From Clostridiales bacterium (GTDB lineage Bacteria; Bacillota; Clostridia; Lachnospirales; WQUN01): a DNA stretch of 40,651 nucleotides. The notes beneath the pieces were generated by a model, which worked only from the letters and a program-made list of their open reading frames with translations, searched no databases and had not been told where the DNA came from. The stretch is taken from NCBI GenBank assembly GCA_031271295.1, contig JAISVZ010000172.1:1-40651 (forward strand), given 5' to 3'. Of this stretch, positions 29,744 to 40,651 are shown piece after piece (the first letter of the stretch is position 1; every line of letters begins with the position of its first letter). Made by a program: the position numbers and the translations under genes.

Positions 29744-31801
29744 ATGACTTTTAGGCTAAAACTCAAAGAATCGGTTATTGGCGTAATTATTCTCGGAATA
29801 ATAAGCTTAATTATTATTCAGCCTTCCGCCGACGTTTTGGATGTTTTAATAATTATAAATTTATTTGTATCCATGATGATTATGTTAAACGCGTTATATT
29901 CCAACGACGCGCTCGACATGTCTCTTTTCCCAACGATTCTGCTCATTACAACCGCGTTTCGTCTTATTTTAAACCTTGTTTCCACAAGGCTAATCCTTCA
30001 AGACGGGGATCCGGGCGTGGTTGTTAACACATTCGGAACCTTTGTTACGGGCGGCAACATGGTTGTAGGAATAATAATGTTTATAATAATTGTTATAGTT
30101 AATTTTATGGTTATAACAAAAGGTTCGGAACGTGTTGCGGAAGTTACCGCAAGGTTTACACTTGACGCTATGCCCGGTAAGCAAATGGCCATAGACGCGG
30201 ATTTAAACACCGGCCTAATAGACGAAGAGGGCGCAAAAGAGCGGCGTAAAAAAATACAGGATGAAGCCAATTTTTACGGCGCTATGGACGGCGCTTCAAA
30301 GTTTGTTAAGGGCGATGCTATCGCGGGTATTTTAATTACGTTTATAAACATAATAGGCGGCGTTACAATAGGCGCGTTGGGGCTTGGCACAGGGGAACCA
30401 CTTACAATAATGGAGGCTCTTCAAAAGTACGCGCTTTTAACCGTAGGCGACGGGCTTGTTAGCCAAATTCCCGCTATTATGATTTCTTTGGCAATGGGTC
30501 TTTTGGTTACGAAGGCAAATTTGGATTCCGACGTTTCAACTCTTATGGTGCGTCAGCTTTTCGGCAATTCTTTGGTTTTATACATAGGCGGGTTCGTGCT
30601 TGTTGTGCTTGGCGCGGTAACACCACTTCCAACCGGTCCGTTTTTAATATCGGGGCTCGTTTCAATAATTTACGCTACATATTTAGATAGGCAAAAGCAG
30701 CTTGTTGCAATTAAAACCGAAATTACCGCGGAGGATTCCGAGGCCGAGGAAATACGCAGGCCGGAAAACGTTGTTTCGCTTCTTAGTGTGGATCAAATTC
30801 TGCTTATATTCGGTTACGGCTTAATTCCGCTTGTGGACGCAAGCCAAGGCGGGGATTTATTGGATAGAGTTGTTATGATAAGGCGGCAGGTGGCGCTGGA
30901 ACTTGGCGCGGTTGTGCCGGTTATCCGCTTAAGGGACGATATTAAGCTTTCGCCTAACGAATACCGAATATTAATAAAGGGCATTGAAGTAGCCGGCGGC
31001 GATATCATGTTCGACCATTACATGGCAATGAACCCCGGTTATGTTGAAGAGGAAATTGACGGCATTGAAACAGTGGAACCGTTTATGGGCCTGCCCGCTT
31101 TGTGGATTTCCGAATCGCAAAGGGAACGCGCGGAAGCTCTTGGCTACACAGTTGTAGACCCTCCGGCAATTATCGCCACACACTTAACGGAAGTTATAAG
31201 GGGGCATTTGCACGAGCTGCTTACAAGGCAGGATGTGCAGTCGCTCATTAACCATGTTAAGGAAGCTCACCCGGTACTTGTGGACGAACTTATTCCCAAA
31301 CTTTTAACAATAGGCGATGTTCAAAAGGTGCTTGCAAACCTGCTTCACGAGGGGCTTTCAATTAGGGATTTGGTAACGATTCTTGAAACTCTTGCGGACT
31401 ACGCCGCCATGACAAGGGATATGGATATGCTAACCGAATATGTGCGGCAGGCTCTAAGGCGTTCAATTTCGCAGCGTTACTTCGATTCTGATTCGAACAC
31501 GGTTATTACCTTAGACCCTGAGTTGGAGCAAAAAATTATGTCCAGCGTTCAGCAGTCGGAGCAGGGCTCATACCTCGCGCTGGATCCCGGTACAACCCAA
31601 AAAATATTCGATAACCTGAATTCGGAGGTAGTGAAACTAACATCCATGGGGCTTCAGCCAATAATTCTAACCTCGCCTATAGTGAGGGTTTACTTCAAAA
31701 AGTTAGTTGAACAGGTTGCGCCCGATTTGGTGGTGCTTTCATATAACGAAATAGATTCCAAAGTGGAAGTACAGGCTATTGGGATGGTGAGTATTGCGTG
31801 A
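29744..31801 (+). CDS. flhA: Flagellar export gate protein FlhA
   Basis: FlhA is the large export gate protein; its cytosolic ring receives substrate-chaperone complexes. The 685-residue protein has eight membrane helices (first about 310 residues). The conserved FHIPEP-type region reads RFTLDAMPGKQMAIDADLN and GAKERRKKIQDEANFYG between helices. The C-terminal domain (about 345-685) includes VVDPPAIIATHLTEVIR. AGAGGTTGATG precedes the ATG. The stop overlaps the flhF GTG start. Confidence 0.97.
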   Translation: MTFRLKLKESVIGVIILGIISLIIIQPSADVLDVLIIINLFVSMMIMLNALYSNDALDMSLFPTILLITTAFRLILNLVSTRLILQDGDPGVVVNTFGTFVTGGNMVVGIIMFIIIVIVNFMVITKGSERVAEVTARFTLDAMPGKQMAIDADLNTGLIDEEGAKERRKKIQDEANFYGAMDGASKFVKGDAIAGILITFINIIGGVTIGALGLGTGEPLTIMEALQKYALLTVGDGLVSQIPAIMISLAMGLLVTKANLDSDVSTLMVRQLFGNSLVLYIGGFVLVVLGAVTPLPTGPFLISGLVSIIYATYLDRQKQLVAIKTEITAEDSEAEEIRRPENVVSLLSVDQILLIFGYGLIPLVDASQGGDLLDRVVMIRRQVALELGAVVPVIRLRDDIKLSPNEYRILIKGIEVAGGDIMFDHYMAMNPGYVEEEIDGIETVEPFMGLPALWISESQRERAEALGYTVVDPPAIIATHLTEVIRGHLHELLTRQDVQSLINHVKEAHPVLVDELIPKLLTIGDVQKVLANLLHEGLSIRDLVTILETLADYAAMTRDMDMLTEYVRQALRRSISQRYFDSDSNTVITLDPELEQKIMSSVQQSEQGSYLALDPGTTQKIFDNLNSEVVKLTSMGLQPIILTSPIVRVYFKKLVEQVAPDLVVLSYNEIDSKVEVQAIGMVSIA

Positions 31802-35862: not shown

Positions 35863-36132
35863 TTGATTGATTTTATTCATATTTTCATTTGCATTATAGC
35901 TTCAGTTGTATACATAGTAGCCGCTCTTTTAACCGGAGAGCTGCCGGATGTTATTTTAATGCGGCTTGTTTTTATTATGGTAATTTCCTATATAGCGGGT
36001 TTAATGCTGCGCGCGTATCTTAGAAGAACGGTGTTTAAAAAAGAAGATGATAAATTAATTGAGGAAGGAGCGGCTAAAGAAGATACCGTTAGCGCCGCTT
36101 CCGACGACGATTTTGATTCAGACGATTTCTGA
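35863..36132 (+). CDS. Small membrane protein of unknown function
   Basis: An 89-residue protein with two hydrophobic helices (about 5-25 and 33-52), a basic stop-transfer segment (RAYLRRTVFKK) and a very acidic cytosolic tail ending DDDFDSDDF. I do not recognise the family. It starts at a TTG with AGGGATGG upstream and lies 12 bases after cheD and 17 before fliA. The setting suggests a motility role, perhaps regulation of the sigma factor or the chemotaxis array; that is inference only. Confidence 0.75.
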   Translation: MIDFIHIFICIIASVVYIVAALLTGELPDVILMRLVFIMVISYIAGLMLRAYLRRTVFKKEDDKLIEEGAAKEDTVSAASDDDFDSDDF

Positions 36133-36149: not shown

Positions 36150-36935
36150 ATGCCCGAGGGGGTTATATTACCGGTGGACAACATTGATAAAATATGGCAG
36201 GAATACTCCTTAAAAAAGGAAACGTCACTTAGAGATAAGCTGATATTGCATTACTCGCCGCTTGTAAAATATGTGGCGGGGCGTTTAAGCATTCATTTAA
36301 ACCAGCATGTTGAATATGACGATTTAATAAGTTACGGTATTTTTGGCCTTATTGACGCTATAGACAAGTTTAAGTACGAAAAGGGCGTAAAGTTTGAAAC
36401 ATACGCTTCTTTGCGTGTACGGGGAGCAATAATAGACAGCATCAGAAAAATGGATTGGGTGCCAAGAACGTTGCGCAAAAAGAACAAAGAGCTGGATTTG
36501 GTGTATCATGAGCTTGAATCGGAATTGGGGCGTGCGCCTACCGATGAGGAACTTTCGGTAAAGCTTTCCATAACGGTGGAGGAAACAAGGGATTTGCTTA
36601 AAAAATCGTCGGTTGTTTCCTTAATTTCGCTGGACGATTATTTAGACGCAAACCACGAATCCAATTTTTTTGACAAAAACCCAGACCACATGGAGAACCC
36701 GGAAACTAAATATGAAAGCACTGAAGTTAAGCAAATGCTTGCGGACGCTATAGATAAGCTTTCAGAAAAAGAGAAAAAGGTAGTTACACTGTATTATTAC
36801 GAAGAACTCACACTTAAGGAGATAAGCCATATTATGGGAGTGTCGGAATCGCGTATATCTCAAATTCATTCCAAGGCGGTATCGAAGCTTAGCGTGAAGC
36901 TTGGGAGATTTAAGTCATTGTTATATTTGCCTTAA
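36150..36935 (+). CDS. fliA: Flagellar RNA polymerase sigma factor FliA (sigma-28/SigD)
   Basis: The 261-residue protein shows sigma region 2 (YDDLISYGIFGLIDAIDKF and KFETYASLRVRGAIIDSIRK with DWVPR), region 3 and region 4 (LTLKEISHIMGVSESRISQI). The DWVPR block is typical of sigma-28/WhiG. It directs late genes such as flagellin and chemoreceptors. Coding sigma-28 near the end of the main operon is the same arrangement as sigD in Bacillus. The start is uncertain: ATG 36150 has a distant GAGGGG, while GTG 36174 has GAGGGGG 11 bases upstream and would give MDNIDKIWQEY. Confidence 0.95.
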   Translation: MPEGVILPVDNIDKIWQEYSLKKETSLRDKLILHYSPLVKYVAGRLSIHLNQHVEYDDLISYGIFGLIDAIDKFKYEKGVKFETYASLRVRGAIIDSIRKMDWVPRTLRKKNKELDLVYHELESELGRAPTDEELSVKLSITVEETRDLLKKSSVVSLISLDDYLDANHESNFFDKNPDHMENPETKYESTEVKQMLADAIDKLSEKEKKVVTLYYYEELTLKEISHIMGVSESRISQIHSKAVSKLSVKLGRFKSLLYLP

Positions 36936-36964
36936 AAAATAAACTAAAGCGGAGGCGATTAGTT

Positions 36965-38578
36965 ATGGGTAGTCCAAAGAACGTTTCGCTTAAAATAAAG
37001 GAAGACGGAGTTTATTTGCTAATAAACCGCGCCGAGGGGGAAAAGGTTACGCGCGGCGATGTACTTAGCGTTGTTGAATCCAACTTTATTAAGGATATAG
37101 ATTTCGTTGCGGTAAATTCTATTTTCAAAAGTGACGACCTGTTTTTTGAAACTTTGATTTCCCGCAATACCGATGTTTTGGTTAAGAAGGAAAGCGCGAG
37201 GGTAACAGTTGAGGCAAACCGAATGTCCGCCTCGGTTACTTTTATAGAACCTCTTAACAGCAGCGATCTCATGGAATTTGAGGATTTTAAAAATATTCTG
37301 CGCGAGCAAAAAATAGAGTACGGGTTTGAAGAAGAAAACCTAAGGGATATTTTCAGTAAAAGAGTATACAATATGCCGTTTGTTATAGCCAAGGGGCTTG
37401 AACCTATAGACGGGATAAACGGTTATATCCAGCGTCATTTTACTTTGAAGGAAAAAAATTTCAGGCCAAAACACTTAGACGACGGCACAGTGGATTTTAA
37501 ACAGCTTGATATTATAGACATCGTAAAAGAAGGTACCTTGTTATTGGAGCAAATACCCGCTATTCCGGGTGTGGACGGAATGAACGTGCTTGGAAAAACT
37601 ATAGCGCATAAGGTGTGCAAACCCGCTCCTTCTATACCCAAAACCAAAAACACGCGGCTTTCGGAAGATGGTTCGAAGTTATTCGCGGGCTTAAGCGGGC
37701 AGATTGTTGTTAACGAAAACAAGGTAGAAATTTTCCCGGTGCTTCAAATAAGCAAGGATGTGGACAATTCCGTTGGAAATGTGGATTTTGTGGGTTCGGT
37801 TTCAATTAACGGAAATGTTTTAACGGGTTTTACCGTAAAGGCAGAGGGAAGCATAGAAGTGCACGGTGTTTTGGAAGGCGGAGAGCTAATTGCCGGGGGC
37901 GATATAGTTTTAACCGGCGGCGCACAGGGTGTGGAGAAGGCCTCAATAAAAGCGCGGGGCAACATTCACGCCAAGTATATTGACCAGTGCACCGTGTATG
38001 CGGGCGGCGATATCTATACGGATTTTATCGTATACTCAAGGGTTAAATGCGGCGGAAGTGTGGAGCTTTCCGGAAAGAAGGGGCTTCTTTTGGGCGGAAG
38101 CGTTTCGGCCAAAAACCAGATTATTGCCGATGTTATAGGCGCTAATTTATCCGCCTCAACCGAAATTGAGCTGGGTTTTGAACCCGACGATTTCGAGCGT
38201 TACAAAGGGCTTTTAAACCAAATGGAAGAAGCTCAGGAGGAATACAACAAGCTTTTACAAAAGGAAAACATTCTTTCCCAGCAGGCAAAGAGAAGCAAAC
38301 GTCCCGAAGAAATGGATCTAATCCAAACCAACAAGGAATATACAAAGCAGTATTACGAAAACAGAATTGAGGAACTGCAAAACCAAATTGCCGCGCTAAC
38401 ATCTATGGAAAACCCGGAGGAGGTTTACATACACGTTAACAAGGTAATACACGCAGGCGTAAAGGTTGTAATAACTAACGCTCAAACGTATATATTGGAA
38501 CGCCAAAAGGCGTGTAAAATATTAAATATCGGGGGGCGTATTAAAAGTATATCGTTGGATGAGGTTTCGGCGTCGTAA
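36965..38578 (+). CDS. FapA family protein (DUF342)
   Basis: A 537-residue protein of the FapA/DUF342 family, common in flagellar operons of Firmicutes and other bacteria. The N-terminal half is alpha/beta. The middle (about 260-400) is a right-handed beta-helix-like stretch with repeated G-S/N-V-x-G turns (SVSINGNVLTGFTVKAEGS, then GGDIYTDFIVYSRVKCGGS). A coiled coil follows (about 410-475), then a short strand domain. Polymer-like bactofilin-type assembly is a suggestion from the fold; the exact job is unknown. GGAGGCG lies upstream of the ATG. Confidence 0.9.
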   Translation: MGSPKNVSLKIKEDGVYLLINRAEGEKVTRGDVLSVVESNFIKDIDFVAVNSIFKSDDLFFETLISRNTDVLVKKESARVTVEANRMSASVTFIEPLNSSDLMEFEDFKNILREQKIEYGFEEENLRDIFSKRVYNMPFVIAKGLEPIDGINGYIQRHFTLKEKNFRPKHLDDGTVDFKQLDIIDIVKEGTLLLEQIPAIPGVDGMNVLGKTIAHKVCKPAPSIPKTKNTRLSEDGSKLFAGLSGQIVVNENKVEIFPVLQISKDVDNSVGNVDFVGSVSINGNVLTGFTVKAEGSIEVHGVLEGGELIAGGDIVLTGGAQGVEKASIKARGNIHAKYIDQCTVYAGGDIYTDFIVYSRVKCGGSVELSGKKGLLLGGSVSAKNQIIADVIGANLSASTEIELGFEPDDFERYKGLLNQMEEAQEEYNKLLQKENILSQQAKRSKRPEEMDLIQTNKEYTKQYYENRIEELQNQIAALTSMENPEEVYIHVNKVIHAGVKVVITNAQTYILERQKACKILNIGGRIKSISLDEVSAS

Positions 38579-38596
38579 TTAGAAAGAGGTGATTTT

Positions 38597-38908
38597 ATGG
38601 CTATAAGACCGGTAGATTTACAGCTTTTAGTTCACAAAACAGTGGATACGAACAGGACGGAACAGGGGGAGGCGAGAAGGCCGGAGGTTGCGCACCAGCA
38701 GTTTTCTCAGGTAATGCAAAAACACGCGGAAGCTGAAACGCATCAGGTAATACAATCTAACAAGGCGGAACAGGCGGATATTGAAAAGGATGGCAGCGGT
38801 CAGAATAAATACGAGCGCAGAAAAAAAAGCGGCAAAAGCTCCGGCGAAAAACCCGCAAAAAGCGCGGCTAAACAAGAAGGTATAAGTATGTTTGATGTCA
38901 CAGTATAA
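38597..38908 (+). CDS. Small polar protein of unknown function in the flagellar operon
   Basis: A 103-residue soluble protein, no membrane helix. The start MAIRPVDLQLLVHKTVDTNR and the ending ISMFDVTV look ordered, while the middle is Q/E/H-rich and then strongly basic (ERRKKSGKSSGEKPAKSAAK). The N-terminal pattern resembles short proteins that follow fapA or fliA in clostridial flagellar operons, but no function is known to me. GAAAGAGGTG upstream supports the start. It lies 18 bases after fapA. Confidence 0.75.
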   Translation: MAIRPVDLQLLVHKTVDTNRTEQGEARRPEVAHQQFSQVMQKHAEAETHQVIQSNKAEQADIEKDGSGQNKYERRKKSGKSSGEKPAKSAAKQEGISMFDVTV

Positions 38909-38922
38909 TAAGGGGCACATTT

Positions 38923-39570
38923 ATGGATTTGATACAGGTTTTGCTGCTTATTTGCGCCGCGGCGGGTATTGCTATGATGATATTTGCCGTTATGCGCTTT
39001 GGAAGCGAAAATGATTCCGGCGCGGGTGATTATTTCGAAGCGGGAAATACAATAAAAGCAATAGACTCTTCCGTTGACGAAGCGGAAAAGGTTATTGACG
39101 ACTTGAATAAATTTGCGGAATCGGTAATGACGGATATTGATAACAAACATAAGGAACTGCTTTTTGTTTACAATTTAATTGACGAAAAGCATAACGACCT
39201 TAAACGTATGTATTCCGGCACCGAAATTCGTTCCTTTGGTGCGGATATGCCGGTTAATTCTTATGAAGCGGACGAGGAAAAGCGCGGTTTAACAGAGCAT
39301 AGTTCGAATAAAGGAAAAAAACGCAAAGATTCGGATTTTGGAGCGTTATCGGGCGGTGCGGGAAAAAAAGACCGCCGCAGTGAGGAAGAAATTAAGCAGG
39401 ACGGCGGCGACGATGCGCCTATAATGAGTATTAACCCGAAGTACGACGAGGTTATAAGTTTGCACGTAAAGGGATTATCGGTATCCGAAATATCTAAAAA
39501 CCTGAATATGGGGCAGGGAGAGGTTAAGTTAATTCTTGAGCTTTCAAGCCGGAATAGGATGAGATCATGA
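38923..39570 (+). CDS. SwrB-like membrane protein with C-terminal helix-turn-helix
   Basis: A 215-residue protein with an N-terminal membrane helix (about 3-23), a cytosolic coiled coil (about 40-95), a charged low-complexity part and a C-terminal segment DEVISLHVKGLSVSEISKNL followed by GQGEVKLILELS. This last part looks like a small helix-turn-helix of the DUF6115 kind. Bacillus SwrB (YlxL), which follows sigD and helps complete the basal body, has the same layout, so a similar role is inferred from architecture and position. AAGGGGC lies upstream of the ATG. It overlaps the next gene by 4 bases (ATGA). Confidence 0.8.
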   Translation: MDLIQVLLLICAAAGIAMMIFAVMRFGSENDSGAGDYFEAGNTIKAIDSSVDEAEKVIDDLNKFAESVMTDIDNKHKELLFVYNLIDEKHNDLKRMYSGTEIRSFGADMPVNSYEADEEKRGLTEHSSNKGKKRKDSDFGALSGGAGKKDRRSEEEIKQDGGDDAPIMSINPKYDEVISLHVKGLSVSEISKNLNMGQGEVKLILELSSRNRMRS

Positions 39571-40415
39571 AAATGAAAAGTTTTATGTTCGGGCTGGGGT
39601 TCGGGCTTTTAATCGTTTCGGTTATATTTTATTTTATTTACGGATATCAGGTTAAGGCAAACAACTGGGAAAATGACGCGGCAAAAAACGCAACGGACGC
39701 GGAAATTATGCAGCGCGCGCAGCAGCTTGGTATGGTTTCCGCAATTGAAGCGGAGCCCACCGAAGAGGAAATAATAGATTTGGCAACGCGCCTTGGAATG
39801 GTTTCCGCGCAGGAGGCGGAGCCGAGCGAGGAAGAAATAATTGAACTTGCATCGGATTTAGGAATGGTTTTTGCGCAAGGCGGGAAAAACGGCGAAGCGC
39901 AGAGCGGCGGTTTAACGAATGATGTTACGGATGAAAGCGAAAGCGGCGCGGCTTTAAGTGTGGTTTCCGGCTTAGGTGAGAACGATAGCGAGGCGGGCAG
40001 CGTGGGCGATGATGCAGGTGAAACTTCTATGGGAACCGGGTTTAACCGGGACGACGGCGCAGATGAAGGGGAAGCCGTAAATACCGGCGGAGGTTTTGCG
40101 GCAAATAATGAGAACGCGGACGGAAACGGCGATGATGGCGGAAGCGGCGAAGGGTTAAGCGCACTTGCGTCCGGGGAAGTTATTACGGATGAAAACGGCA
40201 GAATAGCGGTGGATATCCCGGAAGGGTTAAACGCGTATGAAGTTGCGGTTTTGCTAAGGAGTAAAGGTATTATTTCGGAGGAAAACATTTTTATAGATTT
40301 TTTAAACGAACGCGGGTTAACAAGAATTATTCAGTACGGCAGATATTATTTTTTTGAGAACGAGGATTTGGAAGAGATAGCGGAGAAGTTTAGAATAGCG
40401 GCGTTAAACAGTTAA
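39567..40415 (+). CDS. Membrane protein with three 22-residue repeats and a YceG/MltG-N-like C-terminus
   Basis: The last gene of the operon, 282 residues, coupled to the one before by an ATGA overlap. It has an N-terminal membrane anchor (about 6-27) and three tandem repeats at 43-64, 65-86 and 87-107. These follow the pattern (T/S)xxEI(M/I)xxAxxLGMVxA, with EAEP ending the first two units. A long D/E/G/N-rich disordered region follows (about 108-205), then a C-terminal domain (about 212-282). There IPEGLNAYEVAVLLRSKGI followed by YGRYYFFENEDLEEIAEKF resembles the small N-terminal domain of the MltG/YceG transglycosylases. The catalytic part of MltG is absent. A wall-facing role linked to flagella is inference. 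Confidence 0.75.
   Translation: MKMKSFMFGLGFGLLIVSVIFYFIYGYQVKANNWENDAAKNATDAEIMQRAQQLGMVSAIEAEPTEEEIIDLATRLGMVSAQEAEPSEEEIIELASDLGMVFAQGGKNGEAQSGGLTNDVTDESESGAALSVVSGLGENDSEAGSVGDDAGETSMGTGFNRDDGADEGEAVNTGGGFAANNENADGNGDDGGSGEGLSALASGEVITDENGRIAVDIPEGLNAYEVAVLLRSKGIISEENIFIDFLNERGLTRIIQYGRYYFFENEDLEEIAEKFRIAALNS
39693..39887 (+). repeat. Three tandem 66-base coding repeats
   Basis: Units at 39693-39758, 39759-39824 and 39825-39887 encode the 22-residue repeats of the last operon gene. Units two and three are most alike (GAAGAAATAAT and GGAATGGTTT are shared). Confidence 0.85.
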
Positions 40416-40416
40416 G

Positions 40417-40472
40417 AAAAGCGGATTTCGGCTTTGGGTTTATAAACCGAGGTTGTAAAATCCGCTTTTTTG
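40417..40472 (+). terminator. Terminator of the flagellar operon
   Basis: The 12-base arm AAAAGCGGATTT (40417-40428) pairs perfectly with 40458-40469; the inner part pairs further with G-U pairs, and a T-run ends it. It starts 2 bases after the last stop codon. The remaining 179 bases to the window edge show no supported gene. Confidence 0.9.
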
Positions 40473-40651
40473 TTGTTGATATTGAACATAATTTTAAACG
40501 TTGTACAAAATGCGGTTTAGCACGGCGTATGCAACCTAAACTCCCAACATAATTAGCACATACACATAGCAGATAAAGATAAAAAGCCTCATAATCCACT
40601 ATTTATCTACAAACAAACACAAGATTACATCTTGATAACCTTCATAAGTAT

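Follow-up and report, generated by a model that had tools for sequence, protein, structure and literature searches.

The final gene of the flagellar operon in a contig of a Clostridiales bacterium encodes a protein of 282 residues, termed T282, that combines one membrane helix with a C-terminal domain homologous to the LysM-like N-domain of the transglycosylase MltG. As far as gene order and sequence can tell, comparison of loci supports the T282 family as a conserved component of flagellar operons in many Bacillota. We propose, with a probability of roughly 0.4, that T282 is a non-enzymatic tether, anchored in the membrane, which ties the export/basal-body complex of the flagellum to nascent peptidoglycan or to the enzymes that synthesize it.

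The window, that is, the whole stretch of 40,651 nucleotides analysed here, represents an entire contig (C93); the draft genome to which it belongs measures 3.69 Mb. Between 28.5 and 40.4 kb the gene order is flhB, flhA, a gene with an SRP54-type GTPase domain (flhF by context), a ParA/MinD-type gene (flhG by context), a PilZ gene, cheC and cheD, followed by an 89-aa gene, a flagellar-type sigma factor, fapA, p103, DUF6115 and T282. The distal part of this block comprises the following features:

36150-36935, + strand: flagellar-type sigma factor, sigma28 by context (sigma-70 regions 2-4)
36965-38578, + strand: fapA (PF03961, PF20250)
38597-38908, + strand: p103, a small conserved protein of the block without curated family (Pfam and NCBIfam searches, comparison of loci)
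38923-39570, + strand: DUF6115 protein, SwrB/FipA-like, the constant upstream neighbour of T282 (PF19610, E 4.4e-23)
39567-39570, + strand: ATGA overlap of the T282 start with the DUF6115 stop codon (sequence)
39567-40415, + strand: T282 gene with ATG start, last in the flagellar operon (open reading frame)
40415-40471, + strand: hairpin with U run, probable terminator (folding)

The DUF6115 protein of the window consists of a helix, a coiled part and an HTH-like end, and it matches DUF2802 weakly (E 0.0017, under the cut-off). From the ATGA overlap we infer that translation of T282 is probably coupled to that of DUF6115. The hairpin located 3′ of T282 is 57 nt long and folds with -27.6 kcal/mol (z -6.2), none of 200 shuffles being as stable; it is not among the matches of a short-loop terminator scan. 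Together with the conserved place of the gene in other loci, the overlap and the hairpin agree with the initial annotation, which had regarded T282 as a regular part of the operon in front of its terminator. Between 35800 and 40651, neither sigma-70-type promoters (6 versus 9.5 in shuffles) nor short-loop terminators (5 versus 5.4) were found in excess, and an Rfam search of 36900-40651 yielded no match at the gathering score.

Some further observations concern the neighbourhood and the genome. The 89-aa gene (35863-36132, + strand) located between cheD and the sigma factor encodes two hydrophobic stretches, the second of which contains an arginine, followed by a tail of polar residues; no notable Pfam or NCBIfam match was obtained, and by eye the protein fits the type-1 FlgV described in the available text of PMC11607428. 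The same text places 'YjfB' in the operon block that here holds p103 (38597-38908, + strand), which recurs between fapA and DUF6115 in many of the loci compared. In addition, the genome contains a second, partial FlhA-type (FHIPEP) match (G000:C17:9281-9886, - strand) covering family positions 323-530 with an E value of 8.8e-25.

The C-terminal part of T282 corresponds to a single feature:

40179-40412, + strand: MltG-N (LysM-like) domain, modelled as residues 205-282, the fold covering residues 213-281 (profile, model)

As a single sequence, T282 matched the Pfam family YceG weakly (E 0.0033, 17.4 bits versus a cut-off of 32.4). In contrast, the signal of the family was strong: at E ≤ 0.01, 17 of 19 full-length members and 95 of 97 family C-domains matched YceG, and the C-domain profile retrieved Listeria Lmo1499 from the PDB (4iiw, E 2.6e-12). 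The second row of the latter search, 8vd6 (E 1.4e-7), is a repeat protein matched through five short helices of about 6 bits each and was disregarded. Alignment of the C-domain with the MltG N-regions of 21 loci by hhalign, one row of which is a wrong sub-match, resulted in a probability of 99.5% over 75 columns. Modelled alone, the domain reached a mean pLDDT of 91.4, and in the full-length model residues 211-280 showed block means of 94-97. Residues 213-281 are modelled as beta-alpha-alpha-beta-alpha, and this fold resembles 4iiw (TMq 0.82; Z 12.6, rmsd 1.9, 70 residues aligned) and the second MltG structure 8yoa (Z 8.4). Weak VIA structure rows corresponded to injectisome needle-complex entries (Z 2.5-2.9), classical LysM chains appeared in Foldseek only at an E value of 4 or worse, and T282 matched none of the LysM families in Pfam at E ≤ 10. 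Thus, the C-terminus does not lack a predicted fold, an outcome that the initial annotation had named as speaking against it (pLDDT 91), and the relationship to YceG/MltG that it had suggested emerges from the family profile.

The Pfam match spans positions 1-62 of 275 and the protein then ends, so that the catalytic YceG domain with its glutamate is absent from T282. A separate, full MltG is encoded in the same genome by an open frame of 398 codons, which covers YceG positions 1-272 of 275. T282 is therefore rejected as a wall-cutting enzyme. Since 28 of 57 family members match the NCBI MltG model (E ≤ 0.001) without possessing the catalytic domain, such proteins should not be called transglycosylases in annotation. 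A comparison by column of 97 family members with 20 MltG proteins revealed opposite mean charges at position 237 (-0.44 in the family versus +0.60 in MltG), position 243 (-0.43 versus +0.60) and position 273 (+0.22 versus -0.85). The core of the fold is common to both groups, and one face has changed from basic to acidic around 237-243; the ligand may therefore differ from that of MltG, and the acidic face speaks against binding of glycan pure and simple. As a separate observation, two stand-alone MltG-N proteins with another N-terminus (MEKLKD type) are encoded at L054:1495-2007 and L059:1498-2058, both on the - strand. Flagellar neighbours were tested for and not seen in these two loci, and the proteins possibly constitute a second non-catalytic MltG-N family.

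The N-terminal part of the protein is composed of a helix, three repeats and a linker:

39582-39638, + strand: core of the membrane helix, residues 6-24, with the GLGxG signature of the family (hydrophobicity; helix 3-40 in the model)
39687-39752, + strand: box copy 1, residues 41-62 (profile, register; helix 44-53 in the model)
39753-39818, + strand: box copy 2, residues 63-84 (profile, register; helix 66-75 in the model)
39819-39884, + strand: box copy 3, residues 85-106 (profile, register; helix 88-97 in the model)
39885-40181, + strand: acidic, glycine-rich linker, residues 107-205, net charge -20, predicted to be disordered (composition, model)

This architecture bears out the membrane anchor, the 22-residue repeats and the MltG-N-like domain described initially. 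Residues 6-24 form the only hydrophobic segment of T282. The linker of about 100 residues is modelled with low confidence and almost no structure, and because of its length the middling quality of the full-length model (mean pLDDT 73.5, pTM 0.38) is as expected. The three repeats follow each other in an exact register of 22 residues with pairwise identities of 12, 15 and 8; their sum (35/66) was reached by none of 20,000 shuffles of the same stretch. A profile of the family box scored 33.5, 23.3 and 29.9 on the three copies, compared with a best score of 2.4 in 11,275 windows from the other long open reading frames of the window. This best match outside the family lies in the flhA frame (29744-31801, residues 454-470); it may be due to chance or may provide a lead to a partner surface.

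Throughout the family, the membrane helix is followed by a box of the type (M/L)(S/T)DEEIIxRAxELGMV, and within the N-half conservation is highest in the GxGxG of the helix and in the box. Counted with one regular expression, the box is present in 96 of 118 full members, namely once in 81, twice in 13, three times in one (T282) and four times in one; in 22 members none was found by this expression. Since full members usually carry a single box, the repeat of T282 is, judged by sequence, a local multiplication (triplication) of this family-wide juxtamembrane element. The suggestion that the repeats are copies of the helical motif in the C-terminal domain did not withstand a profile scan with control. 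On the C-domain of T282 the best box score was -21, a value equalled or surpassed by 313 of 11,275 control windows, and the median score of the family C-domains was reached by 20% of 135 control chunks of 75 aa. Homology between box and C-domain is thus not supported by the sequences, and the likeness of the two is that of a helix ending in glycine.

With regard to topology, the net charge before the helix exceeds that behind it in 105 of 118 full members. When K and R alone were counted, the segment before the helix contained more of them in 55, fewer in 48 and equal numbers in 15 of these 118 proteins, and seven short forms that were checked gave an ambiguous result. The linkers of the family are rich in E, T, S and P and contain almost no cysteine. 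Together with the bias in net charge, this composition fits an outward location of the C-terminus.

No curated family naming T282 was found in Pfam, NCBIfam or PHROGs (the latter at E ≤ 0.01). Among relatives, 27 of 61 genomes, that of the window included, gave a match. The 26 other loci comprise two true MltGs and 24 family members, and the family gene adjoins DUF6115 in 22 of these 24, the other two (L010, L021) being located at contig ends. Homologues thus stand beside flagellar genes elsewhere; their absence there had been named beforehand as speaking against a role in the operon. A sigma-factor scan of GTDB genomes provided loci with record titles, of which the best 80 of at least 575, mostly Lachnospirales, were inspected. 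DUF6115 was seen in 76 of these best 80, and was accompanied by the full form in 67, by the N-part only in 6 (two of them close to a contig end) and by no copy in 3. Two of the last three end at a contig edge; the third (L173), from a MAG of the Defluviitaleaceae that ranks first by sigma-factor match among the best 80 of at least 575, lacks a copy behind DUF6115. The full form is also encoded at locus L201, which belongs to a strain named Lachnoclostridium phytofermentans.

At the level of the class, FlhA scored over the cut-off in 112 of 291 genomes, and 112 regions downstream of flhA were obtained from 111 of the FlhA genomes. DUF6115 is present in 74 of these regions, with a full form in 36, a short form in 19 (five of which came from a motif search), none in 18 and one region at an edge. 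The remaining 38 regions, some of them cut by contig ends, show no visible DUF6115; three of them (L141, L143, L148) nevertheless contain a short form. Among the 18 regions without a copy, 12 continue, by eye, with the gene of ribosomal protein S2, the order behind swrB of B. subtilis, and a further three (L127, L133, L150) retain a helix-only remnant. Across the phylum, the full profile has matches in 288 of 299 genomes; many of the matches listed are confined to the C-domain and lie in frames of about 330-440 aa, like MltG itself. In all 20 phylum loci examined outside the class, which are hand-picked high scorers (match reaching the N-half, or short-frame type) and give no rate, the sigma factor and DUF6115 lie directly upstream, as does fapA in 12. 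Two of the phylum loci (L279, L289) show no clear box, and in two others (L280, L281) the frame as called begins downstream of the helix. In Butyrivibrio sp. NC3005 (L234:10565 onwards), a T282-like protein of 374 aa occurs with a DUF6115 protein of 609 aa, and p103 was not found.

A profile of helix plus box matched 83 of 291 genomes at E ≤ 0.001. FlhA is present in 77 of these, out of 112 FlhA genomes in total, and the other 6 belong to the 179 genomes without it (odds ratio 63; Fisher 3e-35; no correction for relatedness). Of the six genomes without FlhA, G131 and G297 carry DUF6115 beside the match, in G102 the match lies inside a frame of 532 aa, and G088, G120 and G240 belong to one family with weak matches; a few of the 77 matches in FlhA genomes are likewise weak and inside long frames (e.g., G191, G292). 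No match was obtained in 35 FlhA genomes. The short forms, of 45-86 aa, consist of the helix and one box, occupy the same place in the operon and occur in several families of the class. In one family (f76) a short form exists alongside the full form, and the window's own family contains short forms with two boxes (L007, L013, L025). A tree of the C-domain had too few columns, with 3 of 57 inner branches starred, and said no more than that a single origin is not rejected (AU p 0.53). Since the full form occurs phylum-wide and one origin of the C-domain is not rejected, loss of the wall domain would be a simpler history than its gain. As the C-domain is absent from the short forms and the gene from some flagellated genomes, both are dispensable for flagella as such.

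Several known systems resemble T282 in part. The transglycosylase MltG/YceG (PF02618; Lmo1499, PDB 4iiw) shares with it the single membrane helix and the LysM-like N-domain; unlike MltG, T282 lacks the catalytic YceG domain and has boxes, a long linker and a place in a flagellar operon. According to the available parts of the respective papers, MltG of E. faecalis supports growth without its catalytic domain but not without the LysM domain (PMC12288455), and the LysM domain of B. subtilis MltG has been proposed to bind or hold the nascent strand (PMC8135044). SwrB of B. subtilis, FipA (DUF2802) and DUF6115 are, like T282, single-helix membrane proteins of flagellar operons, but they have a cytoplasmic HTH-like or DUF2802 end, and T282 matches none of these families. 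In the accessible text, SwrB is described to activate the flagellar export apparatus through FliP (PMC4526659) and to raise, via FliP, the chance of a basal body becoming fit for secretion (PMC4526659; PMC13344023), and FipA, a DUF2802 protein, to bind FlhF (PMC11620751). FlgV (Nat Commun 2024, PMC11607428) is, as far as the available part of the article describes it, likewise a small, recently recognized membrane protein of the same block (sigma28, FapA, YjfB, TM+HTH), but has two helices and a cytoplasmic tail; a term search of its main text did not return MltG, YceG, LysM or transglycosylase, and its section 8 names no MltG-like gene. AgmT of Myxococcus xanthus, according to the portion of PMC11444678 at hand, belongs to the MltG family and is required for coupling a motility machine to peptidoglycan. 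In contrast to T282, it needs lytic activity, lies outside the machine and serves gliding; its lytic mode cannot apply to T282, which lacks the catalytic domain. From partial texts, the C. difficile genes behind sigD (CD0267-CD0272) drop in a sigD mutant, probably by polarity (PMC3865298), and fliA is the most distal gene in the revised annotation of Lachnospiraceae motility loci of Eubacterium/Roseburia (PMC3720852). Among the titles and abstracts listed from PMC, outside of which most subscription papers lie, no description of T282 was found, and no mention of DUF6115 was found in the PMC literature.

In the tether model, the N-terminus of T282 would lie inside and the rest outside. Helix and box would bind the flagellar membrane complex, most likely the export/basal-body complex acted on by the coupled DUF6115 (SwrB-like) protein, and the linker would give the C-domain the range to contact nascent glycan strands close to the membrane, or their synthases, a role modelled on the proposal for the LysM domain of MltG itself. 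As a consequence, the growing rod would be held or placed at sites of wall synthesis, or the finished basal body seated in the wall; those lineages that encode just helix and box would have lost the wall part while retaining the flagellar one. The homology and fold of the C-domain, the place behind DUF6115, the association with FlhA, the bias in net charge and the composition of the linker count for this model, as do the cited findings on the LysM domain of MltG and on SwrB. The changed charges at 237, 243 and 273, the K+R counts, which favour neither topology, and the lack of the C-domain or of the whole gene in some flagellated genomes count against it, as does the nearest precedent in motility, AgmT, with its lytic mode outside the machine. 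Of the initial suggestion of a helper that senses or opens the wall, the opening enzyme falls with the catalytic domain, and a helper or tether that touches the wall is the best guess from models and sequences.

Alternatively, the working part could be helix plus box, acting as a small membrane protein that partners or regulates DUF6115/SwrB and the export gate, with the MltG-N domain as an often lost accessory. Short forms at the same operon place in 19 of 74 class regions with DUF6115, also beside full forms (f76 and the window's family), and the conservation of GxGxG and box in the N-half argue for this explanation. However, the full form has a phylum-wide distribution and the tree does not reject a single origin of the C-domain, so that this domain seems long kept; we consider the explanation rather unlikely. 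The kept structural core together with the change of sign on the face around 237-243 would also suit a C-domain that has moved off glycan and serves as an adaptor for a protein outside the membrane, such as a rod or stator part or a PBP; yet no partner protein was indicated by any analysis, and we consider such an adaptor improbable. Finally, an MltG domain without catalytic part beside a full MltG in the same genome might act as a decoy, drawing nascent strands or synthases away from MltG in competition and thereby sparing glycan length near flagella. The changed face makes competition for the same site less likely and nothing else speaks in favour; we regard a decoy as very improbable.

The tether therefore remains our preferred reading. 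Tentatively, T282 may even found a phylum-wide flagellar component, in which the strand-holding module of MltG, freed from the enzyme, links the export/basal-body complex to nascent peptidoglycan and couples rod growth to wall synthesis in Gram-positive bacteria. If this were true, lineages without T282, or with helix and box only, would have to solve the wall problem otherwise. To our knowledge, the passage of Gram-positive flagella through the thick wall and their seating in it are poorly understood, and a conserved operon protein that carries a module of wall synthesis without the enzyme is a direct candidate for how these flagella meet the wall. The T282 family may thus represent an unnamed and possibly overlooked part of building the flagellum or holding it in the wall.
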